From assembly GCA_030698405.1 (NCBI GenBank), contig JAUYMU010000075.1:1-45662 (forward strand): 45,662 nt of DNA. Reading direction: 5' to 3'. Within the stretch, counting starts at the first letter, position 1. Each line of letters starts with the position of its first letter. The translations under genes and the position numbers were made by a program. The notes under the pieces were generated by a model, which saw only the letters and a program-made list of their open reading frames with translations, did no database searches and had not been told where the DNA came from. Shown piece after piece: positions 5,181 through 25,468 of this stretch. The stretch is from Bacteroidota bacterium (lineage in GTDB: Bacteria; Bacteroidota; Bacteroidia; Bacteroidales; Prolixibacteraceae).

Positions 5181-5213
5181 GAATGATATTTACGGACCAG
5201 TGAATGATTTGAA
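5181..5213 (+). promoter_or_regulatory. Tandem operator-like repeat, copy 1 (GAATGATaTT / GAATGATTTG, 21-bp period)
   Basis: GAATGATATT at 5181 and GAATGATTTGAA at 5202 are direct repeats 21 bp apart, about 120 bp before the DUF3472 gene and reading toward it. The same motif with the same spacing occurs at 17636-17668 and, on the minus strand, at 13066-13098. Two helical turns between half-sites is what a dimer of AraC-type DNA-binding domains would need. Assignment to the HTCS at 13287-17540 is inferred. Confidence 0.65.
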
Positions 5214-5335
5214 CTGTAATTCATAAATTCTTTCCTGATTTTAAAATAAACTCTCCAGAAAAATGGCTTCAGTTAGTGTCAACTTGCATAGGTTGAAAAT
5301 TGACTCAATTATTAACTGAAACTAAAAATTTTAAT

Positions 5336-6706
5336 ATGAGAAAAATTAAGAATTATCTCTTGCAGTTCAAGGCGAAGCAGACAAAAAACGTATCTCAACT
5401 CATTACATTCACTAAGTATTCTGTTGCTTTAGCAATTTTTATGAGCTGCAGTAACGTAACACCCAGTGTCGAAATACCCGATCCGGTATATAAATTTGAG
5501 GTCAGTATCCCCACACAGGGAAATAGCTGGGTAACCAATAATCTATCACAAAACAGCACCGTAATAACCGAAAATGGCATTGAGAAATGGAACAATAGTT
5601 CCTCGGTAATAGCTACATTCTTTAAAACCACTTCCACTGGGAAAATGCAAATCGGATTGCGGGCCAAATCCACTACCGGACAATCAAAGCTTAAAGTAAG
5701 ATATGGCAACAAAGAGGTTGTGGTTGAAATTAAATCAAATACCCTGAATGATGTTTATGTCGCAACCTTCGATGTGGTATCAGCAGGCTACCAGAAAATT
5801 GAAATGCAGGGAGTTGAAAAATCGGATGCCTATTTTGCTGAAATCACCGATTTGTTGGTTGGTGGTGAAGTAAGCAAGCAAAAAATATATTGGGTAAAGG
5901 AAGATTTTTACTGGGGCCGACGCGGACCATCGGTTCACCTGAATTATGAAATACCTCAGAATAGCGGCGATATTAAATGGTTTTATAACGAAGTTTCCAT
6001 TCCTAAAGGTGAAGATGTTTTGGGCTCCTATTTCATGGCCAATGGTTTTAAGGAAGGTTATTTTGGCATTCAGGTGAACTCGGATACCGAACGCCGTATT
6101 CTCTTTTCGGTGTGGAGTCCATATACCACCGACAATCCCAGTTCTATTCCTAATGACTATAAGATTAAATTGCTAAAAAAAGGGTCAGCTGTCTATTCCG
6201 GAGAATTTGGAAATGAAGGTTCGGGAGGGCAAAGCTACCTGGTATATAACTGGAAACCAGCTATTAAATATCGATTTTTGCTGAAGGTCGAACCTGTCGG
6301 GGACAATTCAACGGATTATACCGCTTATTTTTTCGATCCAGAAAAATCAAATTGGGAACTGATTGCCAGTTTTCGTCGTCCTTATACCAACACGTATCTG
6401 AAAAGTCCGTACTCCTTTCTTGAAAATTTTATGACAGAAACAGGCCAGTTGGCACGCAAAGGAAATTATCTCAATCAATGGGTGTGCAATACAAATGGCA
6501 CTTGGTTCGAAATGGTCCGTGCCCGTTTTACTGCTGATGCCACCGCCCGCAAGGAATCACGGATGGATTACTCCGGAGGTACTGAAAATGGCGTTTTTTA
6601 TCTGAAGAACTGTGGATTCTTTAGTGAAACAACTCCGTTGGATACCTACTTCAATCGACCTGCAACCGGAATAACACCAGCTATCGATTTCAGTAAACTT
6701 CCTTAA
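5336..6706 (+). CDS. DUF3472-family lipoprotein with N-terminal DUF5077-like domain
   Basis: About 456 aa from the ATG at 5336 (MRKIKNYLL). The signal segment YSVALAIFMSCSN ends in a Cys, so a lipoprotein. Residues about 35-165 look like the DUF5077 beta-sandwich and the remainder (IYWVKEDFYWGRRGPSVHLNYEIP through NGVFYLKNCGFF) is the DUF3472 domain. No catalytic residues are known to me for this family; it is common near PUL genes and is thought to act on or bind glycans. The upstream operator-like repeat ties it to PUL 1 rather than to the nan genes before it. Function is unassigned. Confidence 0.75.
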   Translation: MRKIKNYLLQFKAKQTKNVSQLITFTKYSVALAIFMSCSNVTPSVEIPDPVYKFEVSIPTQGNSWVTNNLSQNSTVITENGIEKWNNSSSVIATFFKTTSTGKMQIGLRAKSTTGQSKLKVRYGNKEVVVEIKSNTLNDVYVATFDVVSAGYQKIEMQGVEKSDAYFAEITDLLVGGEVSKQKIYWVKEDFYWGRRGPSVHLNYEIPQNSGDIKWFYNEVSIPKGEDVLGSYFMANGFKEGYFGIQVNSDTERRILFSVWSPYTTDNPSSIPNDYKIKLLKKGSAVYSGEFGNEGSGGQSYLVYNWKPAIKYRFLLKVEPVGDNSTDYTAYFFDPEKSNWELIASFRRPYTNTYLKSPYSFLENFMTETGQLARKGNYLNQWVCNTNGTWFEMVRARFTADATARKESRMDYSGGTENGVFYLKNCGFFSETTPLDTYFNRPATGITPAIDFSKLP

Positions 6707-6776
6707 TGCATTGAATTAGTATCATTTTCAACAAACATTTTATCCCTCCAGTTTTTTTTAATTGACTGAAAATTTC

Positions 6777-6825
6777 AAGTGCAAGCTTTTTAAAGGAATA
6801 CTCCAAAAGCTTGCACTTCGTTTTT
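6777..6825 (+). terminator. Intrinsic terminator after the DUF3472 gene
   Basis: A perfect 14-bp stem (aagtgcaagctttt at 6777-6790 and its complement at 6805-6818) with a 14-nt loop, followed by cgttttt. It starts 71 bp after the stop codon at 6706. Confidence 0.75.
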
Positions 6826-7010
6826 GTAACTTGTCTGTTATATTATTCATTATCAAAATTTAATGCATTTTCAGCAGACCCAATTCAAGTTTACCTTTAA
6901 AATTCTTCTTAAGAGAGCCCGAAAAGCTTCTAAAGCAGGAATATTAGACTGAAATACCCACTGTCGGTTTTCGGCTTATTGCTTGCAAAGATTACACCTG
7001 CCGGGCGCAT
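6826..7010. other. Spacer without a convincing gene
   Basis: AT-rich sequence between the convergent DUF3472 and SusD genes. On the minus strand a short open stretch ending near 6862 reads about 23 codons to a stop (C-terminus GKLELGLLKMH), which could be the tail of a decayed gene, but nothing recognisable precedes it. Confidence 0.5.
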
Positions 7011-7061
7011 ACACAAAAAAAGAGGTTGAATCAATGTTTGATTCAACCTCTTTTTTTGTGT
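7011..7061 (-). terminator. Perfect 23-bp hairpin terminator after SusD (bidirectional)
   Basis: Arms at 7011-7033 and 7039-7061 are exact reverse complements with a 5-nt loop. The outer part is an A/T run and the core is gaggttgaatca, so each strand has a U-tract. It lies 67 bp downstream of the SusD stop on the minus strand, closing the SGBP-SusC-SusD operon. Confidence 0.85.
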
Positions 7062-7128
7062 GCAGGTAGAATTCAGATTTTAAATTCTACTTGCAGAAAT
7101 TTACTTCTGATGTATCGCCGTAAAGCGA

Positions 7129-8799
7129 TTACGGATTTTGAACTAAATTGGGCTGCGCTAAAATTTGTGGGTCAGGAATAAAATCGACAACTCTGTTCGA
7201 ACTGGCTGGTACAGTCATCAGAGCAGCGCCCCGGTCGTGTGTTCCAGGATAACGCCTGTCTAATGTTAAACCGTTTCTAAAAATATCGTAACGGCGATGA
7301 GCCTCAAAAGCAAGTTCTAAACGGCGCTCATCCAGTACAATATCCAATATGCTTTTTTCAGCAGGAACAACTGAAAATTCAGGAATATTGGTGCGTTTAC
7401 GAATAATATTCACATCGGCAAGAGCTCCGTCTGTATTCCCTGTTTTGGCACGAGCTTCGGCCCTGTTGAGGTACATCTCGGCCAAACGCGAAATAATTGG
7501 TGAAAACAATTGTGGCTGGTCTTCCTGATTGGAACATTTTATGACAAAATATTTAGGGTAACCATTTCTCATTTCCATTCTCCGTTCCAGTTTCGCATAG
7601 GTTTTTGCGGTAACATTGGCACCAGAAGTAATGTAGTACAATGTTTTGCCATCAACCACCTCTGTTTGAACAGTTTTTGTGCCGTTGTAGGTATAATCCC
7701 AGTTAGCGCCGTTTTGAGTCACGTTGTAGGTTTGAAACATTTTGGAGCCTGCGGGAGTAGCTTTTGCATAGGTGTAAATAATCCAGTAAAGTGGATTTCC
7801 AGATGCATCGTTTACATATTGAGGTACAATGAATTTATTCCGTCTGTCGCTGGGATTTTCGTTAAGCATATCGCGGAAGGGTTCTGAAGCGTACATTTCG
7901 CCCCAGCCAACACCGTCAATCGTGGCATACATACCGCCAAATGCATACCATCCGTAATCATCCTTATCTTTAAGTGCTTTGCAGGCAAAAATAACTTCCG
8001 AGTTCTCTTCAGGTTTTAACTTTGGAAATGTTTCGTAGTCTGTACCTTGCAATAACTCAAATTTGTTCGAACCGATCACTTTTGTAGCATATTCTTCGGC
8101 TTTTGCATTGTCTTCCATGTAAAGATAAAGCCTGGATAATAAAGCATTTGCTGCTTGTTCCGATGCATAAATGTTGTACTCGTCTTGCACCCTTGTAAAC
8201 TTACTCATTAGCTCGGCAGCTTTCAAAAGGTCGGCTTCAATCTGTTTGTACACTTCCCTTACAGTTGCACGGGGAGGCAAATTATTTACATCTGGTTCAG
8301 CATCCAAAACAATTGGAACGCCCAGGTTTTTATCAGGATCCTGATTGTAAGGTCGCCCCCAGATACTTACAAGGTTTAAGTAGAAGAAAGAACGTAAATA
8401 ATACATTTCGCCAATAACGTGATTCATGCGGTCTGTTCCTTCCTTCGCTTTCGAGATAACCTTGTTGGCATTTACGATTCCACGATAACAGGTTGACCAC
8501 AAGCTATTCAGATGCCCGTTTGTTGGGGTGTGCTGATAATTATACATGTAGTACAAGGCATCGGTGGTTGCTCCGCTAAGAGCAATATTGTCGCCACCAA
8601 ACTCACCATGAAAGTGGTAAGGGCGCATAAATTCATTGGTTTTTAACAAGGCATAGGTACCTAATGCCGCAGCCTCTACTCCCAACTCGTCGGCAAATAC
8701 TTTATCATCGGCCAGATCCTGGAAAGGCTCTCTTTCAATATCGCAACTTCCAAAACCAATGGTAATGAAAATAAGAATGATCGAATATATTTTTTTCAT
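7129..8799 (-). CDS. SusD/RagB-family glycan-binding lipoprotein (PUL 1)
   Basis: 556 aa. The signal MKKIYSIILIFITIGFGSC gives an SPII lipoprotein with Cys19. SusD features include the TPR-rich region, YLRSFFYLNLVSIWGRPY, the SusD-like domain ISRLAEMYLNRAEARAKTGN and the C-terminal VLDERRLELAFEAHRRYDIFRNG. It sits on the outer face of the outer membrane as the lid of the SusC transporter and captures oligosaccharides. It starts 20 bp after the SusC stop, so it is co-transcribed. Ligand is not readable from sequence; neighbours suggest GalNAc/sialic-acid glycans. Confidence 0.95.
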   Translation of the reverse strand: MKKIYSIILIFITIGFGSCDIEREPFQDLADDKVFADELGVEAAALGTYALLKTNEFMRPYHFHGEFGGDNIALSGATTDALYYMYNYQHTPTNGHLNSLWSTCYRGIVNANKVISKAKEGTDRMNHVIGEMYYLRSFFYLNLVSIWGRPYNQDPDKNLGVPIVLDAEPDVNNLPPRATVREVYKQIEADLLKAAELMSKFTRVQDEYNIYASEQAANALLSRLYLYMEDNAKAEEYATKVIGSNKFELLQGTDYETFPKLKPEENSEVIFACKALKDKDDYGWYAFGGMYATIDGVGWGEMYASEPFRDMLNENPSDRRNKFIVPQYVNDASGNPLYWIIYTYAKATPAGSKMFQTYNVTQNGANWDYTYNGTKTVQTEVVDGKTLYYITSGANVTAKTYAKLERRMEMRNGYPKYFVIKCSNQEDQPQLFSPIISRLAEMYLNRAEARAKTGNTDGALADVNIIRKRTNIPEFSVVPAEKSILDIVLDERRLELAFEAHRRYDIFRNGLTLDRRYPGTHDRGAALMTVPASSNRVVDFIPDPQILAQPNLVQNP

Positions 8800-8819
8800 A
8801 ACTAAGAGTTTTTGCTTTA

Positions 8820-11800
8820 TTATTTGAAATTAATTTTAATACCCACTAAATATTTTTTAGCCAACGGATACATCTGTCCAGATTCCGGATCCATACCCGA
8901 CCATTTGGTTAATGTGATGAGATTATCGCCAGTAACATAAACCGAAGCTCCTGCAAGTTTTAGGTGGTCTGTTGCAATTTTTGGCAACTTATATGACAAG
9001 GTAAGATTACGCAACCTCATGTAACTTGCATTTTCCAGATATCGGGTCGAGTTTTTGTTTGCATCAACTCCGCCCATTTCCGGTTTCGGGTGAGTTGCAA
9101 TATCTCCGGGTTTTTCCCAACGGCTCCAACCTTCAGCCAGGTTCATGTGATTAAACGTGGGATATGATCCATCGCTGTCAAATAATTCCCTGTCGCTGTT
9201 GTAGAGATAAATTCCTTCAACAAAACCAATACTGGCCGACAAACTGAAATCATAAACCCTGAACTGGTTATTGATACCTCCGGTGTAAGTTGGTGTACCT
9301 TTTTTGTTGGCATGTTGCAACGTTGCATTGGCATGAGTTGAAACAAGTTCTTTAGTAATGGTGCCATCTGTAGCAGTATTCACCTTTTCCCACAGAGGTA
9401 ATCCGGTGCCCGGATCAACACCATACCAAATGCGCTGATACCACGAATCCATGTCGTAACCTTCCTCTATTCTTTTTGAACCGCTGGTATAAGCTTTGTT
9501 TTCGTACAATTCTTTTACCTCGTTTTTGTTGTAAGCTAAATTCAGTGTCATATCCCAACCAAAATTTTTGGTTTTAATAATTTCAGGATTTACAGACAAT
9601 TCGTACCCGCTGTTTGTAATTCGACCAACATTCATCCAAACACCATTGTACCCAGTCATTGCAGGTAGTGGTACATAAGAAAGCAGCCCATCACTGTCTT
9701 TATTATAAAGATCGAAATTAAAACCTACCCGGTTAAATAACCTTGCATTAATCGCGAAGTTGGTACTTGAAACTTTTTCCCAGCTAATATTAGGGTTGCC
9801 TTTCTGATACGGGCGTGCAGCAGTACGACCATTGTATTGACCAGTTAATTCATAATATCCAAGGAATTGAAATCCTCCCGGAGCATTACCAACCTGTCCA
9901 ATACTTGCAGTAAGTTTAAGAACATTTAACCATTTAATGCCGCTCATGAAGCTTTCATTGTGTAGGTTCCAACCAGCACTGGCCGACCAAAAGTTACCAT
10001 ATTGGTTGTTTGGCCCGAAACTGCTTGATCCCTGACGGTTGAGCGAAGCAGTTGCCATAAATCGGTCTTCATAAGCGTATTGTAAATTAACCAACATACT
10101 TTGTTTGGCCGATTCGCTTTTGAATCCACTCACACTTAATGGTTCGGTAGTGGTGTTAAGTACGTTCAACCCGGCGGCCACACCTTTGCCTGTTGCAGAG
10201 TTGTCATCGTAATATGTATCGCTGTACTCCACTGCAACAAATGCATTTAAGGTACTTTTCCCAATTTCCCGGCTAAAGCGGAGCATTTGGTTGGTAAAGC
10301 GGTTTTTACTGAATGAATAACCATGCTGGTAGGTTCCGTTATTGGCTAAACCACTAAGTGAACGAGGGTCGGTATAGTATTGGCTGTTACCATTGCTCAA
10401 TGAAATGTTGTTCATCGAGGAAAAGGTGAGCCAGTCGGTAATCTTATAATCAAATCCAACATTTGCCATTACATTGTTGGTGCGACCTTTGCCCCAATTG
10501 TATTTCAAATCATACAAATAATTGCTTTCATCCCTCCCGATCCATATTTTGTCGTTAGAAGTCAAATAATCTTTACCTGTGGCAACTTTTGGGTGTAAGG
10601 GTGTACCGTCGGGTAAATACGGATTGTCCCAAGGCATTAGTGTATATATGCTATATAGACTGTGTTCCTGATTAAATGTATTCCGATAACTTCCTGTTAA
10701 ATTTGTTTTGATGGTTAATCTTTCACTGGCTTTAATCTCAACGTTTGCAATTGCCGAATAACGTTCATAATCATATCCTTTTACGGCGCCCTCTTCGTTG
10801 TAATACGTTCCTGATAAATACGCAGAAATTTTATCTGTACCTCCGGAGTAGTTAACGTTGTATTCTTCTGCCTGTCCGGTTTGTGTGCCTATACCCATCC
10901 AGTCGGTATCGGTATTAAGCAAATCCTCTGTAAACCAGCTATTCGTATTCCATTTACTGTGATAGTCATACAATTGTTTCGAGTTCATCAACGAAAAGTT
11001 ACCTGTATTAAGCTCGGTAATACCACGGGTAACATTGAAATTAATTTTTGAAGAACCTTTTTCGGGCCGTTTGGTCTGCACCAGAATTACTCCGTTTGCT
11101 GCCAGTGATCCGTACAGCGAAGTGGCCGAGGCATCTTTCAAAACCGTGATACTTTGAATATCACTGGGACTGAGGTTTGGCTCGCTGTTACCAATAATCA
11201 CACCGTCTAAAACCCATAATGGCGCATTTGTGTTTGATAAAGAGCCTTTCCCCCGAATACTTATGGTAGAAGTTTCGCCCGGACGACCTGTTGCGGTGCG
11301 GGTGTAAACACCGGCAACTTTTCCCTCCAACATTCGGGAGACGGAAGGTGCAAATACATCTTTTAATGCTTCACTATCAATTGCGACCGCAGAGCCTGTC
11401 ATGTTTGATTTTTTTGTAGTACCGTATGCTACTACCATCAACTCCTCAAGCATGCTTGTTTCGGTTTCCATCTTTAGACTAATAACGGCTTGCCCATTAA
11501 TGGGTACTTCTTTTGTTACATAACCTATAAATGAAAAAACCAAAGTCGCTTTATGATCCTTCACTTCAATGCTATAGGTACCATTCAGGTCTGCTATAGT
11601 ACCGATATTGGTTCCCTTAATTACAATATTAACGCCGGGGAGGCTTTCCTTTGTTTGTGCGTCAGTCAGTTGCCCTGTTACTTTCAATGTTTGCGCATTA
11701 ATAGAGCCAACAGTAAGCATTAATCCAAAAAAAACGATGATGGTTTTTTTGAAAATGGATGCATTAATTATCCCTATTTTGGTCTGCTTCGCTTTTCGCA

Positions 11801-11828
11801 GATAGTCTTTTCTTTTTAAGTGATTCAT
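8820..11828 (-). CDS. SusC/RagA-family TonB-dependent transporter (PUL 1)
   Basis: 1002 aa, usual SusC length. After an unusually long basic N-region comes a signal ending SINAQ near residue 46, then a carboxypeptidase-regulatory-like domain (VTGQLTDAQTKESLPGVNIVIKG), the TonB-box/plug transition (EELMVVAYGTTKKSNMTGSA), the plug motif LWVLDGVIIGN...ITVLKDASATSLYGSLAANGVILV, and a 22-strand barrel ending in GIKINFK. It imports oligosaccharides across the outer membrane together with the SusD protein 20 bp downstream. It lies 72 bp after the discoidin lipoprotein gene, so the three form one unit. Confidence 0.96.
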   Translation of the reverse strand: MNHLKRKDYLRKAKQTKIGIINASIFKKTIIVFFGLMLTVGSINAQTLKVTGQLTDAQTKESLPGVNIVIKGTNIGTIADLNGTYSIEVKDHKATLVFSFIGYVTKEVPINGQAVISLKMETETSMLEELMVVAYGTTKKSNMTGSAVAIDSEALKDVFAPSVSRMLEGKVAGVYTRTATGRPGETSTISIRGKGSLSNTNAPLWVLDGVIIGNSEPNLSPSDIQSITVLKDASATSLYGSLAANGVILVQTKRPEKGSSKINFNVTRGITELNTGNFSLMNSKQLYDYHSKWNTNSWFTEDLLNTDTDWMGIGTQTGQAEEYNVNYSGGTDKISAYLSGTYYNEEGAVKGYDYERYSAIANVEIKASERLTIKTNLTGSYRNTFNQEHSLYSIYTLMPWDNPYLPDGTPLHPKVATGKDYLTSNDKIWIGRDESNYLYDLKYNWGKGRTNNVMANVGFDYKITDWLTFSSMNNISLSNGNSQYYTDPRSLSGLANNGTYQHGYSFSKNRFTNQMLRFSREIGKSTLNAFVAVEYSDTYYDDNSATGKGVAAGLNVLNTTTEPLSVSGFKSESAKQSMLVNLQYAYEDRFMATASLNRQGSSSFGPNNQYGNFWSASAGWNLHNESFMSGIKWLNVLKLTASIGQVGNAPGGFQFLGYYELTGQYNGRTAARPYQKGNPNISWEKVSSTNFAINARLFNRVGFNFDLYNKDSDGLLSYVPLPAMTGYNGVWMNVGRITNSGYELSVNPEIIKTKNFGWDMTLNLAYNKNEVKELYENKAYTSGSKRIEEGYDMDSWYQRIWYGVDPGTGLPLWEKVNTATDGTITKELVSTHANATLQHANKKGTPTYTGGINNQFRVYDFSLSASIGFVEGIYLYNSDRELFDSDGSYPTFNHMNLAEGWSRWEKPGDIATHPKPEMGGVDANKNSTRYLENASYMRLRNLTLSYKLPKIATDHLKLAGASVYVTGDNLITLTKWSGMDPESGQMYPLAKKYLVGIKINFK

Positions 11829-11900
11829 AATCTTTTCATTTTTAAAATGTTAGTTTAAAAGTAATTATCCATTCCTGTTTTCAATTAATCTCAGGTTTGA

Positions 11901-12815
11901 TTAATCGAGCAGTCCGTCGTGGTACACTTTAAATTCACTCAAATGGGTGAATGTTGTATTGCCGGGAGTTGATAGGATTCTGATTCTGAAATATTTAGAT
12001 GTGTAGTTTTTATCCAGTGATAATGTATTGGCAGCCGGAGGCATAATAGTAACAGGTAAACCTTTTGGCGACTCCCATACAGTTGTCCACGATACACCGT
12101 CGCTGCTTGTTTGCAAATCAAATGAATTTGGTCGTCCGGTTGTTCCACTTGGACTACGGAACCAGTACTGAAAACCGCCAATACCTTTAGGTTCAGGAAA
12201 ATTAATTTGTATCCAGTGAGGAAGTGGAGCAACGCCTTCCGACCACGCCGTATGCCAATAAGTTCCGGTGTTTCCGTCAACAAGATTTGCCTTTGGACCT
12301 TCAGAAGTTTCCTGGGTATATGTTTCCAACATTTCAGGTGTCAACGTATGGAAAGTTTTACCGGCTTTTGTTTGAAAAGTTTTTGTTTCGCCATAAGAGA
12401 CCCCATTTGCATTGGCTGCATAAGCCCTGACTTTGTAGTTGGTCTTGGGTTTTAGTCCGGTAATTGTAGCGACAAAATCCCAGTCAGTTTCTAATATTCC
12501 GCTGTGCGTGTATTTACCGGCAGCAACGAAATTATCTTCAACAGTGGGCTCCGTATCAGAGTCGGTATAGCATAACCCTATCGCAACTATTTCCGCACTC
12601 CCGTTTGCGGTTACAATTCCCCCGCCAATAGCTTCAATGTCTTTAATCTCAGTAACATCTTTAGTCGAAGTTTGTGGAATGTTACCACTCTCATCCTTAT
12701 CGCAACCGGTAATAAGAGGTGCGGATATTGCTACTGTGAACAATAAAATGAACGAAAACAGATTTTTTTTGAGAAAATCCCGATAATTACTACCTACAAC
12801 AATTTGGTTTTTCAT
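11901..12815 (-). CDS. Surface lipoprotein with FnIII-like and F5/8 type C (CBM32-like) domains
   Basis: About 304 aa from the ATG at 12815 (MKNQIVVGSN); an earlier start adds 20 residues but leaves the signal unchanged. The signal LFTVAISAPLITGC gives lipidation at Cys38. Residues about 50-150 form a Bacteroidetes FnIII-like domain (GLCYTDSDTEPTVEDN, ITGLKPKTNYKVRAYAANANG). Residues about 165-300 are a discoidin/F5/8 type C domain (NLVDGNTGTYWHTAW, HWIQINFPEPKGIGGFQYW, YFRIRILSTPG, LSEFKVY), the fold of CBM32, which often binds galactose or GalNAc. It is likely the surface glycan-binding protein of PUL 1. It is the first gene of the operon, before SusC, whereas such proteins usually follow SusD. 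Confidence 0.85.
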   Translation of the reverse strand: MKNQIVVGSNYRDFLKKNLFSFILLFTVAISAPLITGCDKDESGNIPQTSTKDVTEIKDIEAIGGGIVTANGSAEIVAIGLCYTDSDTEPTVEDNFVAAGKYTHSGILETDWDFVATITGLKPKTNYKVRAYAANANGVSYGETKTFQTKAGKTFHTLTPEMLETYTQETSEGPKANLVDGNTGTYWHTAWSEGVAPLPHWIQINFPEPKGIGGFQYWFRSPSGTTGRPNSFDLQTSSDGVSWTTVWESPKGLPVTIMPPAANTLSLDKNYTSKYFRIRILSTPGNTTFTHLSEFKVYHDGLLD

Positions 12816-13286
12816 AAGCTTGTTTAAATTTAAAATAATAAAAAATACGAATATGTTAGTTTGAAAATTCCGCACACAAATTGCAAACGCTTATATGTTT
12901 TCATTTCTCTGCTCACTCTTCATGTTTTCAGTCTTTTGAGAAATGATTTTTCAGGTAAATCTGTTTTTGGGGACTGCTTTTTAATAGTGTATAAAATTGC
13001 AGCAAAACGCATCAACTGTTCTGTAGTAATAATTCGATTATCTAGACTGAATAATCAAATCATATTTCAAATCATTCATCAATCAGGATAAATCATTCCT
13101 GAAATATTTGGTTTTCGTTTTAATTTAGGGATTATCTGGCCAAAGAAATAGTATTAAAACACAAATAAATAATTGACAATAAGCAGATTAATGAATTTCA
13201 TATTATTCCATCCAGAGTTGATGAAATTGATTTTTGCAGTGGTTGTTTCAGCCAAAGGACATTATACAGACAGATAAGAAAAACGA
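12816..13286 (-). promoter_or_regulatory. 471-bp control region of the PUL 1 SGBP-SusC-SusD operon
   Basis: No gene is seen here. It holds the tandem operator-like repeat at 13066-13098, an extra half-site CAAATCATAT at 13056-13065, and AATTGCAAACG at 12879-12889, an 11-mer also present in the PUL 2 promoter (39434-39444). No clear TAnnTTTG -7 box was found. The long distance from operator to start codon (about 250 bp) implies a long leader. Confidence 0.6.
13066..13098 (-). promoter_or_regulatory. Tandem operator-like repeat, copy 2 (GAATGATTTA / GAATGATTTG, 21-bp period)
   Basis: Read on the minus strand, GAATGATTTA (13098-13089) and GAATGATTTG (13077-13068, continuing AA) are direct repeats exactly 21 bp apart and point toward the SGBP-SusC-SusD operon. 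This is the same motif, spacing and gene-relative orientation as at 5181-5213 and 17636-17668. Confidence 0.7.
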
Positions 13287-16200
13287 TCAGTTCTTCAATT
13301 TTATAAATTCACTCGGTGTTTGCCCGTAAACTTTCACAAAACATTTCGAGAAGTAATTGGGATCGCTAAAACCAACTTCGTAAGCCACTTCGCTAATGGT
13401 CTTGCTTCCGGCAGCCAGCAATTGCGCAGCCTTTTTTAGCCTGATGTTGCGGATAAATTCGGAGATGGAAAGATCGGTCAACGCCTTTATTTTCCTGTAG
13501 GTTTGTGGCTGGCTCAAATTAATCACCCGGCATAAAGTTTCCACATCAAACGACGTGTCGGTAATGTGCTTCTCAATTTCTCCAATAACCTTCTCCAAAA
13601 ATTTCTGATCCTCCTGATTGTGCACATATTCATCACTTTCGAGCTTGGTTCCGTGATAAAACTTCGACTGCAATTTCCGTCGCTGATTAATCAGGTTTTC
13701 AATTGTCAGGTACAAATACTGCAAATCGAATGGCTTGGTAATGTAAGCATCGGCACCCGATTTTAATCCACTCATCTGGTTTGGCAAATCGGCCAGTGCA
13801 GTAAGTAAAACAACCGGAATGTGGCTGGTTTTAAATTCATCTTTCACCTTTCGGCAAAATTCAAAACCGCTGAAATCGGGCAGCATCACATCGCAAATAA
13901 TCAGGTCGGGGTGTTTGGTATCTGCCATTTTCATACCGGATTCAGCATCTGCAGCTTCATCAACACGATAATTGGCCGAAAGTATTTCCTTCAGGTAAGC
14001 TCTTAAATTGTTATCGTCTTCAATCAAAAGCAAGCGGGGTAAACTCTGTTCTTCGCCTGCCCTAACATCACGCAGCAAAACGGGTGAATAATCGTCGATA
14101 CTTGCAATCAGAATTTCCCTGTTGGATTGAGGATTGGATAGGTTAGTACCATTACTATTTTGCTCATTTTCTCCTGCATCAACCGGAACTGTTAAGGTAA
14201 ATACCGTACCCTTGCCAGGTTTACTGATAACTTCAACGATCCCGCCATGCAATTCGACGTATTTCTTAACCAACGCCAGACCAAGCCCACTTCCCGATTG
14301 CCGCAAATTCTGCGAATGGTCGGCCTGATAAAAGGTATCGAAGATGTAATAAATCTGATCTTCTGGAATTCCTTGTCCGCTGTCGGAAACCGTTATCCGG
14401 AATTGTTCTTTTTCATTTACCCCTTCAATCCGGTCGATGCCAACAGTTATCTCGCCATGATCAGGAGTAAATTTAAAGGCATTGGAAATGAGGTTGAACA
14501 CGATCTTCTCCAACTTTTCTGCATCAACCGAAACATCCAATACTTTTTGAGTAGAGACAAACCGGAAGCTGATTTTTTTACGCTGTGCTATGTCGTTGAA
14601 CAGAAAAGCAATCTGCTGGACAAAAGGAACTAAATCAAGGGAAGTACGCATCAATCCTGCTTTGTCGGTATCTGCCTTTCTGAAATCGAGTAACTCATTA
14701 ACTAGCAGCAACAATTTGGATGCATTGCCATAAATAATCTTAAATTTTCGCTGCAATTCGTGTCTGTTCAACTCGTCAATATGGGTAACCAGCTCTTTTA
14801 GCGGACCAATAATGAGGGTTAACGGAGTGCGAAATTCGTGCGAGATGGTGGTGAAAAAATTGATTTTAGCCTGATTGGCTTCCTGCACCTGTTCGGCAAG
14901 AGCCAGCAGATTATCGCGCTGTTTCACGATTTGCTCATTCTGCTCATTCAGTTTCTGGTTCTTCTGTTCAATTTTTTCGTTACGACCAATCATCTCTTCG
15001 TTAATGCGCACCAGTTCTTTGTTTTGCTGCTCAATTTGGATATTTTTTTCCGATAAAGCCGCAGTTTTCTCCTTCACCAGTTTTTCGAGTAGTTTGCTTT
15101 CCTCTTTAACAGCTTTCAGCCTGAAATAAAAAACAAGATAAATGGCAAGTAAAATGGAAAGAACAACCAAAAGTTTAAACCACCAGGTCAGCCAGAAAGG
15201 TGGCAAAACAACTATTTTTATGGAAGTAGGGTGCTCGTTCCAAACGCGATCGTTGTTCGAACCCTGAACCATAAACGTATAAGTTCCGGGGTTGATATTG
15301 GTGTACGAAGCAGAACGCTGATTTCCGGCCTCCACCCAATCTTCGTCGTAACCTTCCAGCTTATACCGGTACTGGTTTTTTCCCGAAAGAATATAGTTCA
15401 ATGCGGTAAACTCAAATGTAAAAATGGTCTGGTTATACTTTAGCCTCAACTCTTTGGCTTCGCTAACCTGATGACTGGTTATCGCCGGATGCGAAAAAGG
15501 GGTAACAGGTTGGTGGTTAACAGTCAAACCGGTTATTACCACCGGAGGAATAAATTGGTTTGGATTAATTCGGGCAGGATCAATAATATTAAAGCCATCA
15601 ATACCTCCAACATATATTTTTCCATCTTTTGCCCTGAACCAGGCATTCTGGTTAAACTCATTACTTTGCAGGCCATCTTCCCAGGTGTAGTTCAGGAACG
15701 TTTTAGTTTTGGTATTGTAAACTGAAATTCCAAGGTTGGTAGAACACCAAATACGTCCCTGATCGTCGGGAATAACCGCATAAACCACGTTGTTCGAGAG
15801 TCCGTCAGAACTCATGTATCTCTTTAATTTTCTTTCTTTTACGACATATTCGTACAAACCATTATTGGTTCCAAACCAAACAATATCGGGTGATTGTTCA
15901 CAAACAGAAAAAATGCGGTTAAATGTCTGGCGGCCAGAGTTTGGGTCGGTTTTAAGAATCTGTTCAAAATCATTGGTATTCTGATCGTACAAATACAATA
16001 AACCTTCAGAAGTACCCAACCAGAATTTACCATTATAACTTTCGGCTACGGTCATGAAATTCTCTCTAATTTCAAAGCCATCGCTGTTTTTCGGATTTTT
16101 CAGCTCAACCGTATTTGTTCCAGGATCATATTTCAAAAAGCCCATCGATGTAATCATCCAGACTATACCTTCTGAATCTTCAAATCCGTTGTTAAAGGTT

Positions 16201-17540
16201 GAGATTTTGGGCAATGACGTAATATTGACCGGATTGAATGGTTGAAATGGTGCTGTTCCGTTTTTAGAAACGAGGATTCCCTGATGATTTGATACGTAAA
16301 TATTCTGCCGCGAATCGCCAAAAACATTGTGCTGGTCGAAGTCTTTAAAATACAAATCAACTCCATCAGTCTTTTCAGGTTTGTTAAAATAGTCTTCCTT
16401 CAACGAGAATAAGCCCTTTGACGTAGCCACCCAAACCGTATTTTTCTGATCACGATAAATACCTTTGATGTTATTAATCGCCTGGTTCAACGATTTGTCT
16501 TTTAGAAAGTTATTATACTTACTAAACCTTGAATTTTCAGGATCGAGTTTATTAACGCCACCCAAAAAAGTTCCAACCCATAAGATTTCTTCCTGATCTT
16601 CAAAAAGAGAAAAAATCACCTCATCGTTCATCGATTCTGGATCATCCGGATCATTTTTGAACGATTCAAAATCGTCGCTTTGAGGATTGTAGCGGAACAA
16701 TCCGATGCCGGTACCTATCCAAACCGAACCATTTTTACGCTGAATTATCTGGTTAATTGTACCCCCTTCAAGAGAATAACGATCAATCCTCCGGGTTTCC
16801 GGCTGATATTTAATCAAGCCATGGTTTCGGGTGCCAATCCATAAATTTCCTTTAACATCGTAAAGCAAGGTTTGAATAAATGCAAGGGATTCAAGCCCAA
16901 GATCAATTTCTTTCGGACTATTGTTGGCTGAAAAATCAAAATTGTACAACCCATTTCCGGTTCCAAGCCAGAGCCCGCCGCGCTTATTATCAGCAATCGA
17001 ATTAATAATCGTGAACTGAGGCTGATCACAAAACGCAGGTGTAGAAAACGATGAATCTGCCGGGTTCCACGAGCAGATTCCACCGCCGCTGGTGGCTATC
17101 CAAAGCTTGCCGTCGGAACCAGTTAATATACTCCGGATATCGTTATCGGGCAGGGATTCTTCAATTCTAGCATCATGCCGGAATGCAAAAAATGTATCAT
17201 GTTTTCGATCATACCTGTTCAGTCCCTCGCTTTGTGTGCCGATCCATAATGCCGAATCAAGCGGATTTTCATAGATACAAACAATGTCATTATCAATCAG
17301 CGATGAAGGATTGGAGGGATCGTTCCGGTAAACATTCAGTTTATAGCCATCATAGCGGTTCAACCCGTCAGCAGAGCCGAACCATAAAAATCCTTTCGAA
17401 TCCTGATAAATACTTTTTATCGTTGATTGAGAAAGGCCGTCTTTGATGGTCAGGTGAGTGAACCGGTTAGTTCCGGTCGATAAAAAGACAATCGTCAGAA
17501 ATAAACACACCAGTCCTATCTGTCTATGTTTTTGTTGCAT
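13287..17540 (-). CDS. Hybrid two-component system sensor/regulator (HTCS), propeller type, PUL 1
   Basis: About 1417 aa from the ATG at 17540 (MQQKHRQIG). Order: signal/anchor segment; two periplasmic seven-bladed propellers of Reg_prop repeats to about residue 690 (for example GFLWFGSADGLNRYDGY); Y_Y_Y domain; membrane segment about 783-808; coiled coil; HisKA with phospho-acceptor His901 (TTISHEFRTPLTLI); HATPase (NLISNAFKFTP, DSGQGIPED, GSGLGLALVKK); receiver with Asp1217 (LIICDVMLPDFSG) and Lys in YITKPFD; C-terminal AraC-type HTH (ISEVAYEVGFSDPNYFSKCF). It senses an oligosaccharide in the periplasm and activates PUL promoters in one chain. It lies just upstream of the operon it should control, divergent from GH109. 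The repeated GAATGATTTG pairs are its candidate operators. Confidence 0.95.
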   Translation of the reverse strand: MQQKHRQIGLVCLFLTIVFLSTGTNRFTHLTIKDGLSQSTIKSIYQDSKGFLWFGSADGLNRYDGYKLNVYRNDPSNPSSLIDNDIVCIYENPLDSALWIGTQSEGLNRYDRKHDTFFAFRHDARIEESLPDNDIRSILTGSDGKLWIATSGGGICSWNPADSSFSTPAFCDQPQFTIINSIADNKRGGLWLGTGNGLYNFDFSANNSPKEIDLGLESLAFIQTLLYDVKGNLWIGTRNHGLIKYQPETRRIDRYSLEGGTINQIIQRKNGSVWIGTGIGLFRYNPQSDDFESFKNDPDDPESMNDEVIFSLFEDQEEILWVGTFLGGVNKLDPENSRFSKYNNFLKDKSLNQAINNIKGIYRDQKNTVWVATSKGLFSLKEDYFNKPEKTDGVDLYFKDFDQHNVFGDSRQNIYVSNHQGILVSKNGTAPFQPFNPVNITSLPKISTFNNGFEDSEGIVWMITSMGFLKYDPGTNTVELKNPKNSDGFEIRENFMTVAESYNGKFWLGTSEGLLYLYDQNTNDFEQILKTDPNSGRQTFNRIFSVCEQSPDIVWFGTNNGLYEYVVKERKLKRYMSSDGLSNNVVYAVIPDDQGRIWCSTNLGISVYNTKTKTFLNYTWEDGLQSNEFNQNAWFRAKDGKIYVGGIDGFNIIDPARINPNQFIPPVVITGLTVNHQPVTPFSHPAITSHQVSEAKELRLKYNQTIFTFEFTALNYILSGKNQYRYKLEGYDEDWVEAGNQRSASYTNINPGTYTFMVQGSNNDRVWNEHPTSIKIVVLPPFWLTWWFKLLVVLSILLAIYLVFYFRLKAVKEESKLLEKLVKEKTAALSEKNIQIEQQNKELVRINEEMIGRNEKIEQKNQKLNEQNEQIVKQRDNLLALAEQVQEANQAKINFFTTISHEFRTPLTLIIGPLKELVTHIDELNRHELQRKFKIIYGNASKLLLLVNELLDFRKADTDKAGLMRTSLDLVPFVQQIAFLFNDIAQRKKISFRFVSTQKVLDVSVDAEKLEKIVFNLISNAFKFTPDHGEITVGIDRIEGVNEKEQFRITVSDSGQGIPEDQIYYIFDTFYQADHSQNLRQSGSGLGLALVKKYVELHGGIVEVISKPGKGTVFTLTVPVDAGENEQNSNGTNLSNPQSNREILIASIDDYSPVLLRDVRAGEEQSLPRLLLIEDDNNLRAYLKEILSANYRVDEAADAESGMKMADTKHPDLIICDVMLPDFSGFEFCRKVKDEFKTSHIPVVLLTALADLPNQMSGLKSGADAYITKPFDLQYLYLTIENLINQRRKLQSKFYHGTKLESDEYVHNQEDQKFLEKVIGEIEKHITDTSFDVETLCRVINLSQPQTYRKIKALTDLSISEFIRNIRLKKAAQLLAAGSKTISEVAYEVGFSDPNYFSKCFVKVYGQTPSEFIKLKN

Positions 17541-17566
17541 AATCCTTCCGGTTTTTAAACACCTCA

Positions 17567-17574
17567 CAAAACTA
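17567..17574 (-). promoter_or_regulatory. Putative -7 box TAGTTTTG of the PUL 1 HTCS
   Basis: Minus-strand TAGTTTTG fits TAnnTTTG and is 26 bp before the ATG at 17540. A TTTA at about 17 bp upstream (17592-17595) could be a degenerate -33. The same octamer precedes the PUL 2 sugar porter gene (39356-39363). Confidence 0.45.
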
Positions 17575-17635
17575 GAGAAATCATTGAGTTATAAAACTAG
17601 CATTCCTCAATTTTAAGAGTTCTTTTGTGCTGAAT

Positions 17636-17668
17636 GAATAATTTGTCCCTTCGCACGAATGATTTGAA
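17636..17668 (+). promoter_or_regulatory. Tandem operator-like repeat, copy 3 (GAATAATTTG / GAATGATTTG, 21-bp period)
   Basis: GAATAATTTG (17636-17645) and GAATGATTTGAA (17657-17668) are direct repeats exactly 21 bp apart in the divergent spacer between the HTCS and the GH109 gene, reading toward GH109 and about 150 bp before its start. Confidence 0.65.
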
Positions 17669-17815
17669 CGAGCATTCGACTTTTTTTTACCATTTTTTGG
17701 TTCAAAGCTACCTGTAAATAGAGTACCCAAGCTGTATTTTTATATTCTGAAAATTCAAAATAGTCAACTAAAGAATAACATATTGTATTTCTAAACTAAC
17801 GATAAAATCACAAAA

Positions 17816-19282
17816 ATGAGTTCAAACAGAAGAGATTTTCTCCGGAATTCCTTGTTAGGAACCGGAATGCTGGCAACAGGATTGGCCAGCCACGCAGCTT
17901 CATTAACCAATGAAACAAGTGCTGAAAGAAGAAAAAAAAGTTCGAAACAGCAGTTTAATATGTGTGGCTACGCAGCGCCAAAGTTAGATAAAGTTCGTGT
18001 TGGTTTTGTTGGTATTGGCGACCGTGGTGCTGGCGCTGTTGAGCGAATGACTTATATTGAGGGTGTTGAAATTACCGCTCTTTGCGATATTCGCCAGGGA
18101 GCTGTTGACGGAGCACAGGAAATACTCGCCAAAGCCGGACTTCCCAAAGCAAAAGAATTTGTGGCCGGCGACCTCGGGTTTAAACAATTGTGCGATAGTA
18201 ACCTTGTTGACCTTGTTTATATTGCCACTCCCTGGGAATGGCACATTCCGGTTGCAGTCGCAGCAATGGAAGGCGATAAACATACCGCTGTTGAAGTTTC
18301 TACGGCAAAAACGATGGACGAATGCTGGCAAATTGTTGAAGTCTCGGAACGCACCCGCAAACACTGTGTCATCCTGGAAAACTGCTGCTACGATTTTTTC
18401 GAATTACTTACTCTTAATATGGTTCGGCAAGGTGCTTTTGGCGACCTGATTCATGGCGAAGGTGCTTACATTCATGATCTGGATTATTGGCATTTCAATA
18501 AGCCTCAGGATGAGAAAATGTCGGACGGTGCCTATACTAAAATGTGGCGTATTCACGAAAATAAACGCAAAGCCAATGTGTATCCAACTCATGGTTTGGG
18601 CCCGATTTGCCAGGCGATGAATATTAACCGGGGCGACAAAATGGATTACCTGACCGCAATGATGTCGGCTGATTTCACGTTAAAAAACAGAATTGCAGAA
18701 AAAGCAAAAGAAGATCCGTTTTTTCAGCAGTTTGTTGGTTGGGATATGCGTGGGAACATGGATATTCAACTGATAAAGACCAATAAAGGACGTACTATTA
18801 TGATTCAGCACGACGTGAGTTCACCCCGTCCTTATTCCAGAATTCACATGCTAAGTGGCACAAAATGTTTTGCGCAGAAATGGCCACTTCAACACATCGC
18901 ATTTGGGCATAAAGCTGCTGATGAAGCAAAAATGAAAGAGTTGGAAGAAAAATATACGCCTGAAATTGTTCGTCGCATGGGTGAAATGGCCAAAAAGGTT
19001 GGAGGTCATGGTGGGATGGATTTTATGATGGACTGGCGCTTAATTGATTGCCTGCGCAATGGCTTGCCAATGGATATGGACGTTTACGATGCGGCCGCCT
19101 GGAGTTGTATTACTCCATTGAGCGAATGGTCGATTGCCAACGGATCAAAACCGATTGAAATTCCAGACTTTACCCGTGGAGCCTGGCAAACCAATAAACC
19201 GCTTGAGTTAACACTGAAAGGCGGCGGAACAACCGGTGTTAAAGACCTGAAAAAAGGTGGCGATAAGCAATTGGGAATTTAA
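17816..19282 (+). CDS. GH109 family alpha-N-acetylgalactosaminidase-like protein, Tat-exported
   Basis: 488 aa. The N-terminus SSNRRDFLRNSLLGTGMLA is a twin-arginine signal. A Gfo/Idh/MocA-type Rossmann domain follows with the NAD motif GFVGIGDRG (residues about 63-71), then EVSTAKTMDECW and the hallmark ENCCYDFFELLTLNMVRQG...GEGAYIHDLDYWHF, typical of GH109. GH109 enzymes use bound NAD+ to remove terminal alpha-GalNAc, as on blood group A or Tn structures; Tat export of the folded, cofactor-loaded protein to the periplasm fits. Context: the operator-like repeat upstream and the CBM32-like binding protein both fit GalNAc. Other Gfo/Idh/MocA oxidoreductases share the fold, but the NCCY segment favours GH109. 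Confidence 0.88.
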   Translation: MSSNRRDFLRNSLLGTGMLATGLASHAASLTNETSAERRKKSSKQQFNMCGYAAPKLDKVRVGFVGIGDRGAGAVERMTYIEGVEITALCDIRQGAVDGAQEILAKAGLPKAKEFVAGDLGFKQLCDSNLVDLVYIATPWEWHIPVAVAAMEGDKHTAVEVSTAKTMDECWQIVEVSERTRKHCVILENCCYDFFELLTLNMVRQGAFGDLIHGEGAYIHDLDYWHFNKPQDEKMSDGAYTKMWRIHENKRKANVYPTHGLGPICQAMNINRGDKMDYLTAMMSADFTLKNRIAEKAKEDPFFQQFVGWDMRGNMDIQLIKTNKGRTIMIQHDVSSPRPYSRIHMLSGTKCFAQKWPLQHIAFGHKAADEAKMKELEEKYTPEIVRRMGEMAKKVGGHGGMDFMMDWRLIDCLRNGLPMDMDVYDAAAWSCITPLSEWSIANGSKPIEIPDFTRGAWQTNKPLELTLKGGGTTGVKDLKKGGDKQLGI

Positions 19283-19372: not shown

Positions 19373-20389
19373 TCATTGTTTTTTCCTTAACTTCTGAATG
19401 TCTGCTTCAATCTCATTTAAACTATCCAATCGCTGCGTTTCTCTTGTTGCTTCTATGTATTTATTGTATTCCAATAGAGACTTTTCAAGGGCCATTTGAT
19501 GGCTGATTATTCCGGCATGAGTTAACAGTTCTCTGCCGTTAAGTTGTAAAATTGAATCTAAACGATTGATCCAGTCTTTCATATACATCGGAACTTGTTG
19601 CTGAGCCATGGTTTCGGCAAAAGTTAAATATTGTTCAACCAGCAAACCGAGAAGTTTTATCTCGTTCTCGTTCAGGTAATTTTTGGCTATACTGATGTCT
19701 GATTTTTTCGGGACTTGGATATTCTTTTTGTCGTATGACTGCATACCCAACAATGGCAGCGTTGCGTCAACCCTGCGATAAATTAATTCGGCTGCAGTTT
19801 GCTGACTTATAGCCCAGAGTAGTTTGTTCTGGACAATTTTGAAAAATTCAATCGTCTTTTCGTCTTTAGGGTTGTAGTCGATACTGGTAGTATAAATATC
19901 TTTTATTTTTTGATAGAAAAAGCGTTCTGAAAGGCGAATCTCGCGGATACGTTCTTGCAGTTCGCTGAAGTAATTCATTGAACTGCCTGTCTTAAACCGG
20001 TCGTCGTTCAGCGTAAAACCTTTTACAATGTATTCTTTCAGGCGTTGCGTAGCCCAAATTCTAAATTGGGTTCCCTGATGAGATTTTACCCGGTAGCCAA
20101 CAGAAATGATTACATCGAGGTTATAGTAGGTCACATCTTTTACCTGCATTTTATCAGGTATGGCGCCATGCGGAGTGGTGTGTCGGAAATTCCGACATAC
20201 CAGTTTTTCATCTAATTCTCCTTCGTTAAATATATTGCCAATATGTTCAGTTATTGTACTTCTTCCTTTCCCAAAAAGTACCGCTATCTGGCTCTGTGTT
20301 AGCCAAACGGTTTCATCCTCCAAATGCACATCTATTTTGATACTGCCTTCAGAGTTTTGGTAAATCAATATTTCGCTGCTGTTATTCAT
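19373..20389 (-). CDS. RhuM-family protein (virulence RhuM, defence-island associated)
   Basis: 338 aa. The N-terminus is characteristic: QNSEGSIKIDVHLEDETVWLTQSQIAVLFGKGRSTITEHIGNIF, a winged-helix/ANT-like domain, followed by VCRNFRHTTPHG, YYNLDVIISVGYRVKSHQGTQFRIWATQRLKEYIVKGF. This family was named after Salmonella RhuM; its biochemical role is not settled and members are frequent beside restriction-modification genes. The C-terminal half carries helical coiled coil (LLEYNKYIEATRETQRLDSL). It is the last gene of the three-gene cluster and is flanked by an 11-bp direct repeat. Confidence 0.85.
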   Translation of the reverse strand: MNNSSEILIYQNSEGSIKIDVHLEDETVWLTQSQIAVLFGKGRSTITEHIGNIFNEGELDEKLVCRNFRHTTPHGAIPDKMQVKDVTYYNLDVIISVGYRVKSHQGTQFRIWATQRLKEYIVKGFTLNDDRFKTGSSMNYFSELQERIREIRLSERFFYQKIKDIYTTSIDYNPKDEKTIEFFKIVQNKLLWAISQQTAAELIYRRVDATLPLLGMQSYDKKNIQVPKKSDISIAKNYLNENEIKLLGLLVEQYLTFAETMAQQQVPMYMKDWINRLDSILQLNGRELLTHAGIISHQMALEKSLLEYNKYIEATRETQRLDSLNEIEADIQKLRKKQ

Positions 20390-20442
20390 GGTTGTTATCT
20401 TTTATTCGATTTATTGCAAATTATTACGTCAACGATTCAATA

Positions 20443-21399
20443 TCATCTCTCAACCTCATTTTTTATTATTGTCAATTTTTGGATCGATTCATTGTCAAGC
20501 ATATCAATTAAAGGGTGATCCATCGGCATATTTAAATCGAAATCCATGATCCATTTAAATTCCAGATACCTTGTTTTGTTATTAATGCCGGTGACCATAC
20601 ATTCAATCCTGCTTCCATCAGTTAATTTAACTCTGGCCTGCTTTATTTTTGTTCTGTAATAAGATGGAAATTCTTTTTTACGGACATTAATTTTACCTCT
20701 GTATTTTCCTTCGGCTAAAAATTCTATGCCTCTTCCATCCGGTTTTTTAACCACTTCAACCCAAACAACCTGACCAATTAATCGCGACGGATTTCCAAGA
20801 TGCCATTCTATTTTTTCAGTATCAGCCCCCAATATCAATTGTTTGTCAATATTTAAACCTTGATAGGTTAGCTGGATTTCGTCGCCTGGTAGCTTTTTTA
20901 AAATGGATTGGTCGGGCCCAAACTGCGATTTATGCAACAACCCAACAAAAGAGCCGTATTTCCAGCCAAACTCTGAACCAATATCAACAAAAAAACCATA
21001 GTTTGTCTTTCGGATAATAATCGCGGTAATTTTTTCGCCTGGCAAAAGCTCTAGTTCTTTAAACTGTGGTATTTCTCCATTAACAATAATTGAAATGGGG
21101 TCGTGCGAAATTTTATGGATTTTACAAAAAAATATCCGGTCTATTAATTTGGGCGAAACAGCTTTCCAATATTCAATATCGGCATATTTCCAAGGCATAT
21201 ATTTGAATGCAATAAAACCATACAGACCGGCGACTTTCACTAAAAACCCAGTTTGTTTAACTGCCATGATTTTGAAGGGGACACTAATGTTTTCATCCCT
21301 TAGCCTTTCGGCATTTTTCACAAGCTCATCAAGCCATTCTTTTTTTTCAGGCTGACCAAATAGTTCTTTCGTGATTTGTGCGATTTTATCAAAAATCAT
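20443..21399 (-). CDS. Protein with S1-like (OB-fold) RNA-binding repeats, linked to a type IIG RM gene
   Basis: 318 aa, no signal or membrane segment. A clear S1 motif runs about residues 120-195 (GEKITAIIIRKTNYGFFVDIGSEFGWKYGSFVGLLHKSQFG ... LPGDEIQLTYQGLNIDKQLILG, quoted in parts here only as landmarks: NYGFFVDIG, GLLHKSQFG, PGDEIQLTY). Weaker OB-like repeats lie at about 40-75 (VPFKIMAVKQTGFLVKV) and 210-285. The gene starts 14 bp after the stop of the restriction-modification gene, so it is co-transcribed. I do not know a described role for such a protein in this setting; RNA or nucleic-acid binding is inferred from the fold. Confidence 0.6.
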   Translation of the reverse strand: MIFDKIAQITKELFGQPEKKEWLDELVKNAERLRDENISVPFKIMAVKQTGFLVKVAGLYGFIAFKYMPWKYADIEYWKAVSPKLIDRIFFCKIHKISHDPISIIVNGEIPQFKELELLPGEKITAIIIRKTNYGFFVDIGSEFGWKYGSFVGLLHKSQFGPDQSILKKLPGDEIQLTYQGLNIDKQLILGADTEKIEWHLGNPSRLIGQVVWVEVVKKPDGRGIEFLAEGKYRGKINVRKKEFPSYYRTKIKQARVKLTDGSRIECMVTGINNKTRYLEFKWIMDFDLNMPMDHPLIDMLDNESIQKLTIIKNEVER

Positions 21400-21413
21400 A
21401 AACTATTGCTCTT

Positions 21414-25436: not shown

Positions 25437-25444
25437 TATATTTG
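25437..25444 (+). promoter_or_regulatory. Putative -7 box TATATTTG of the fructan HTCS
   Basis: TATATTTG fits TAnnTTTG and ends 24 bp before the preferred ATG at 25469, in the divergent spacer with the restriction-modification gene. No good -33 TTTG at 19 bp. The position of this box also argues against the upstream TTG start at 25442. Confidence 0.45.
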
Positions 25445-25468
25445 AGAATTGCTAAAACTAAATTTCTT

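Follow-up and report, generated by a model that had tools for sequence, protein, structure and literature searches.

The locus

The window considered here, a stretch of 45,662 nucleotides from a member of the Prolixibacteraceae (genome G000), is the whole of contig C5, and sequence 5' of its base 1 lies outside it. It carries a PUL with the following features:

5336..6706, + strand: DUF5077-DUF3472 protein, predicted regulon member (the ORF opens at 5300, with an ATG at 5336)
7129..8799, - strand: SusD-family lipoprotein
8820..11828, - strand: SusC/RagA-family TonB-dependent transporter
11901..12815, - strand: surface glycan-binding protein (SGBP) with an F5/8-type C domain
13287..17540, - strand: hybrid two-component system (HTCS), the proposed regulator (Reg_prop/Y_Y_Y sensor, HisKA, HATPase, REC, HTH_18)
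13290..13667, - strand: DNA-binding domain that defines the HTCS clade (SQPQTYRK and SDPNYF segments)
17816..19282, + strand: GH109-family protein (alpha-N-acetylgalactosaminidase family)

The HTCS is of the classical kind, with a periplasmic Reg_prop sensor, HisKA, HATPase, REC and an AraC-type HTH all in one chain, and its REC domain bears a SHIP motif at residue 1248 of the ORF. The SGBP most likely starts at 12815 (MKNQ..., followed by a lipobox), not at the ORF start, 12875.

The contig opens with a DHDPS-family fragment, whose position suggests a NanA-like lyase, and between it and the DUF3472 gene are encoded a NanM-like kelch protein, an N-acylglucosamine 2-epimerase, an MFS transporter and a GDSL esterase. 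Together these look like a sialic-acid operon with its promoter beyond the contig. On the other side of the locus, the segment from GH109 to a second HTCS (19373-25271) encodes a RhuM-family protein and an Eco57I-type restriction-methylase with DUF7149/DUF7814, and is probably a defence insertion. The second HTCS (25442-28267), fructose-type with a Peripla_BP_4 sensor, has two GH32 genes and one for a SusD-like protein beside it. The intergenic regions checked for this HTCS and its GH32 locus yielded no clear 21-bp repeat.

Paired sites in the source genome

The first-pass annotation of this DNA had described three spaced motif pairs with a 21-bp period, intergenic and facing the genes that they precede. 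All three are present as described: GAAT(G/A)AT-type pairs begin at 5181 (+), 13098 (-) and 17636 (+), each with a period of exactly 21 bp, each in intergenic DNA, and oriented toward DUF3472, SGBP-SusC-SusD and GH109, respectively. A looser pair pattern, allowing up to three mismatches, matches the window three times, as compared with a mean of 0.15 matches (largest count, 2) in 100 dinucleotide shuffles.

On the scale of the whole genome (5,486,406 bases in 138 contigs), for which our statements on G000 are the outcome of pattern searches, the spaced 10-bp pair GAATNATTTN-N11-GAATGATTTG at up to one mismatch is confined to these three window sites, and a fourth match, on C98, has two mismatches. 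The core GAATGAT-N14-GAATGAT by itself is unspecific, with 15 matches at up to one mismatch in G000 (one for the reversed control), some of which resemble simple repeats.

Conservation in two congeners

The HTCS is 91% identical to its counterpart in G012 and 90% identical to that in G008 (residues 660-1426), and the HTCS intergenic region retains the array described below in both genomes. The gene divergent from the HTCS in both congeners encodes a DUF3472 protein 36-39% identical to that of the window, and GH109 follows. In both G012 and G008, DUF3472 is preceded by an array. G008 has an extra one in front of GH109, its first 6 bases falling within the end of the DUF3472 ORF, and G012 has one in front of SusC-SusD. 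In this last case, the array is the counterpart of the one upstream of DUF3472 in the window and stands, together with a GDSL gene remnant, before a SusC-SusD pair, the SusC being 27-31% identical to the window SusC. Across these close relatives the operators persist although the genes that they precede vary (GH109 or DUF3472 in one instance, DUF3472 or SusC-SusD in the other), which suggests that regulator and operator together form the stable part of the locus. The G012 remnant itself (L190:7072-7278, - strand) has a fuller counterpart on another contig, the nan-operon GDSL copy, and appears to be a trace of rearrangement.

DUF3472 had been assigned to a GalNAc/sialic PUL. Its place in the regulon holds, with the congener DUF3472 genes adjoining the HTCS behind the same operator. 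The sialic part of the assignment fares less well: the 14.9-kb stretch with the G012 nan operon contains no pair at up to 6/20 mismatches, and the nan promoter of the window is off the contig. The predicted regulon here is DUF3472, SGBP-SusC-SusD and GH109. An M60 peptidase adjoins the HTCS in G012 and G163, and an O-glycan substrate is plausible.

Co-occurrence with one type of DNA-binding domain

The DNA-binding domain, used as query against 140 family genomes, gave 30 loci, these being the best domain of 30 genomes, and clade membership was assigned by reading the residues of these 30 domains. Eleven of them share the recognition segments SQPQ (SQSQ in G079) and N/SDPNYF, namely those of G000, G012 and G008 and of the more distant G163, G073, G092, G083, G070, G079, G093 and G089. 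The presence of both GAATGAT and TnC in one half-site would fit the two recognition helices of an AraC-type domain, lying about one turn apart.

The array recurs in six of the eight distant clade loci, with a period of exactly 21. Upstream of SusC, GAATGAt-N14-GAATGAt is seen in all five of the loci tested first (G163, G073, G079, G093, G089), where the 7-bp core pair has shuffle P values of 0.001-0.009; with the full 10-bp half-site of the first-pass annotation, G093 does not reach significance (P 0.08). The HTCS-SusC divergent region holds the pair in four of these five loci, and in five of the six distant arrays once G083 is included. The HTCS contig of G083 was cut, and its context was unknown before a combined operator and -7 pattern matched contig C703, on which the N-terminal part of the HTCS, the array, the -7 box and the SusC start are found. 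Because that pattern included the -7 box, the independent part of the G083 result is its genomic position.

The remaining two distant loci, G092 (where the contig begins inside the HTCS) and G070, lack an array, and neither genome has a combined match at up to two mismatches; G070 does show, at L208:11167, a weak core pair with two mismatches and no TnC. Its clade HTCS is an ORF of ~335 aa (L208:9748-10755), and HTCS and operator may have been lost jointly. One further intergenic core pair on a clade contig, with one mismatch (L207:629), was set aside, lying at neither an HTCS nor a SusC promoter.

Consistent with a tie between motif and domain type, 14 control loci with other HTCS recognition residues contain no intergenic core pair at up to one mismatch and a single pair at two. 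The combined operator and -7 pattern finds 27 matches at up to two mismatches in the 140 family genomes, as opposed to two for the reversed pattern. All nine matches at 0-1 mismatch are in clade genomes (8/11) and none in the other 129, the best domain having been inspected in 19 of those. The 18 two-mismatch matches divide into three in clade genomes, at arrays already known, and 15 elsewhere. Seven of the eight genomes helped to define the pattern, and therefore only the absence elsewhere and the G083 match are free of circularity. The spaced pair at up to one mismatch has 25 matches in the same 140 genomes: six are in G000, G012 and G008, 14 lie inside ORFs of at least 150 aa and five lie outside such ORFs.

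Searches of the order (393 genomes, E up to 1e-33) and class (395 genomes, E up to 1e-38), both sampled from a larger group, extend this comparison. Neither a pair nor SQPQ/SQSQ is present in G493, G360 and G354 from the order search or in G541 and G736 from the class search. The domain identities of the first three, ~49-55%, overlap those of clade members G079, G089 and G093; their first recognition segments read SQTR (G493), SQTK (G360) and SRVH (G354), with NDPNYF kept in G493 and G360, and they were excluded from the clade by recognition residues only after the pair scan. The G493 HTCS (SQTR) has a 21-bp repeat of its own, AATAATTACTT (L252:6282-6568, - strand), with TTAC/TGAC at four 21-bp steps and with CATATTTG at 96 bp and TATCTTTG at 115 bp from the start, which hints at a similar layout.

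Across loci, then, the motif follows the DNA-binding domain type, and the exceptions are in G142. Two intergenic GAATRATTTGTGAT-type pairs with a 21-bp period are found there, with 0 and 1 mismatch (L213:8863, - strand; L214:9144, + strand), each in the gap between a SusD-like gene and the gene that follows, and neither with TnC columns or a -7 box. The best domain match of G142 is outside the clade, and the HTCS of the L214 PUL has SKST residues; possibly, these pairs are the repeat of another regulator.

The first-pass annotation proposed the pairs as the candidate recognition site of the HTCS at 13287-17540. Genomic uniqueness, conservation in congeners and the tracking of recognition residues all support this proposal, and the three window sites are very probably operators of that regulator.

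Four probable half-sites in register

The unit had been described as two half-sites. The strong pair is real, but the unit seems to comprise four repeats, with half-sites GAATGATnnnTnC at 0, +21, +42 and +63, of which that at +42 is the least certain. The strong pair would then be the distal half of a longer array, in which half-sites 1 and 2 are strong, 3 is degenerate and 4 is moderate. The arrays and associated promoter elements of the window are as follows:

5181..5257, + strand: operator array before DUF3472 (half-sites 5181-5194 and 5202-5215 strong; 5223-5236 and 5244-5257 weak)
5280..5287, + strand: putative -7 box before DUF3472 (CAACTTGC, a poor match, identical in G012)
12992..12999, - strand: putative -7 box before SGBP (CAATTTTA, 99 bp from array start)
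13022..13098, - strand: operator array before SGBP-SusC-SusD (13098-13085 and 13077-13064 strong; 13056-13043; 13035-13022)
17636..17712, + strand: operator array before GH109 (17636-17649 and 17657-17670 strong; 17678-17691 and 17699-17712 weak; conserved in G012 and G008)
17735..17742, + strand: putative -7 box before GH109 (TATTTTTA, 99 bp from array start)

Ten promoters (the three of the window, that of GH109 in G008 and six distant ones) were aligned on the first half-site. Further columns common to at least 8/10 promoters are T53, C55, G64, A65, A69, T74, C76 and parts of the -7 box (100-107), with A69, T74 and C76 invariant (10/10). From position 41 on, 17 columns reach at least 8/10, whereas 2,000 shifted alignments give 1.6 on average and never more than 6, and T53/C55 and T74/C76 echo T11/C13 at the 21-bp period. 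When a matrix is built from the first two half-sites of the remaining promoters, +63 ranks first and +42 second among offsets 34-190, with leave-one-out P values of 5e-5 and 2.5e-4, respectively.

Splitting the promoters by lineage separates the two weaker half-sites. With the six distant promoters as training set and the four from the window and G008 as test, +63 ranks first and +42 sixth of 156 offsets; with the window, G008 and G163 as training set and the five promoters of the other genus as test, +63 ranks first and +42 second. Half-site 4 is thus well supported and half-site 3 less so, its content being little beyond T.C. The promoters of G083, G089 and G093 are 54-58% identical at unconserved columns (other pairs, 22-48%; shifted baseline, 32%), and on account of this shared ancestry the promoter-alignment P values are optimistic and independence is overstated.

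A putative -7 box and the promoter layout

In most promoters, a -7-like box is found 99 bp past the first base of the array. The GH109 box of G008 (CTTTTCAA) is, like that before DUF3472 in the window, a poor match. With G083 left out, a box with at least 5/6 matches falls at one offset in five of nine promoters (P 5e-5, the floor of 20,000 shifts); when one of two related promoters is dropped, it does so in four of eight (P 1.5e-4). None of the ten promoters has a TTG wholly inside the 16 bp whose downstream edge lies 15 bp before the -7 position. Half-site 4 would instead stand where a -33 box is expected, as judged from predicted start sites.

How far does this layout extend to other HTCSs? 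Among 93 non-clade upstream regions, some of which precede the HTCS gene itself, 10 pairs scoring at least 11/13 occur at period 21, as compared with 0-3 at each of the remaining periods between 15 and 30; for four repeats, the statistic at period 21 is little above that at other periods, and searching 126 upstream regions de novo for 21-bp repeats yields a modest excess only. For five of the 10 strong non-clade pairs, a -7-like box lies 53-62 bp from the start of the pair, an interval picked post hoc, where 0.14 would be expected per random start. Other HTCSs may thus use only the proximal pair. At another HTCS locus of the source genome (L194, G000:C131), a different 21-bp pair, TCTCTTTTTGTCC/TCTCTATTCGTCC, stands upstream of a 999-aa ORF at 11483, and a -7-like box follows at 58 bp, which would fit the use of a proximal pair alone.

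A proposed mechanism and its alternatives

It is likely, in our judgment, that the three sites are HTCS operators, each made up of four half-sites on a strict 21-bp period with a -7-like box 99 bp from the start. From the sites, their register and their co-occurrence with one domain type, we infer binding by the HTCS, the number of dimers and the direction of regulation. With its four half-sites reaching as far as the -33 position, such an array suggests binding by two dimers and activation of a class II-like kind. The SHIP motif fits the inhibitory REC-DBD arrangement described in the sections of PMC11253607 drawn on here, and activation by phosphorylation is therefore likely. Binding of a glycan by the periplasmic sensor would lead to phosphorylation of the receiver domain, which would free the AraC-type DNA-binding domain. 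One HTCS dimer would then load onto the strong distal pair and help another to occupy the weak proximal pair. The last half-site of this proximal pair would cover the -33 position of promoters seemingly without a -33 box, and RNA polymerase would be recruited there in a class II-like manner. We lean, by a modest degree, toward a scheme in which this HTCS clade activates transcription via its four-half-site 21-bp array, with two dimers or one membrane-bound tetramer, the weak pair replacing the -33 element and being loaded by the high-affinity distal pair.

The strongest competitor, to which we would give a minor share of the probability, is an ordinary operator of two half-sites, with one dimer on the strong pair and with the +42 and +63 columns reflecting promoter sequence in an unusual -33 region. 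The HTCS motifs published in the part of PMC3878776 considered here are pairs; moreover, half-site 3 is almost solely T.C, and half-site 4 adjoins the promoter, where other constraint is expected. On the other hand, the extra columns keep to the 21-bp register, the matrix from half-sites 1 and 2 puts +63 first in both lineage-split tests, and half-site 4 of the SGBP array opens with GAATTATTACTAC, nearly a full half-site.

The four-repeat operator of the HTCS must also be weighed against binding by some other regulator, encoded elsewhere and merely co-occurring with the PUL, a reading made conceivable by the 28-bp core scattered over G000 (the 15 matches at up to one mismatch) and by the G142 pairs, which occur without this HTCS type. 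It is improbable, given that the array goes with a single DNA-binding-domain type in genera whose neighbouring genes differ and that, of the six distant arrays, five are located in the divergent intergenic region of the HTCS itself. Chance, or the recent duplication of one promoter, might be suspected from three copies within 12.5 kb and from window arrays that are 37-48% identical at unconserved columns (shifted baseline, 32%), but is contradicted by genomic uniqueness, shuffle counts and recurrence in other genera and can virtually be dismissed.

Relation to known systems

In the AraC I1-I2 and MelR operators, direct repeats are spaced by about two helical turns, the last one abuts or overlaps the -35 region, and MelR uses several half-sites; these are sigma-70 promoters, with soluble sugar-binding regulators and other repeat sequences. 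The window arrays would resemble such class II operators in their working only.

Closer at hand are the operators predicted for 16 HTCSs of B. theta, which, in the portion of Ravcheev et al. (2013; PMC3878776) used here, are direct repeats with a mean distance of 21 bp that precede operons neighbouring the HTCS gene, with a dimer proposed to bind one DNA side and with motifs that follow the DNA-binding-domain tree. With 16 predicted in 2013, HTCS operators are less rare than the first-pass annotation put it. The window arrays are likewise ~21-bp direct repeats upstream of PUL operons beside an HTCS and are conserved in relatives. A strong pair is present, and two weaker half-sites seem to be added in register; where that account gives two sites, there would be four here, in register and locked to a -7 box, in a host outside Bacteroides. 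The likeness drawn here is one of spacing and placement.

Experimental precedent for binding comes from BT4124 and BT4663, whose receiver/DNA-binding fragments bound promoter DNA in EMSA (PMC11253607). The excerpted text of that study describes the inhibitory REC-DBD arrangement in most HTCSs and places the S/CHIP motif in the conserved inhibitory interface; the window HTCS belongs to the same family and carries this motif as SHIP, and its binding is predicted. With the B. theta mucin/GalNAc locus BT4240-50, as it appears in the passages of PMC11992087 considered, the locus shares GH109, an SGBP with CBM32 and SusCD, a likeness of gene content to which the M60 peptidases of the G012 and G163 loci add.

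Neither a four-repeat array nor a fixed -7 spacing was found in the HTCS literature as represented by portions of open-licence PMC papers. That HTCS operators are 21-bp direct repeats was already known; the promoter-locked four-repeat array appears to be new. HTCSs control many Bacteroidota polysaccharide loci, and how they act on promoters of the unusual -33/-7 type is, to our knowledge, poorly defined. An array of four repeats locked to the promoter would provide exact bases to mutate and predicted transcription starts, and may allow regulons to be assigned from DNA sequence, as it does here for DUF3472.
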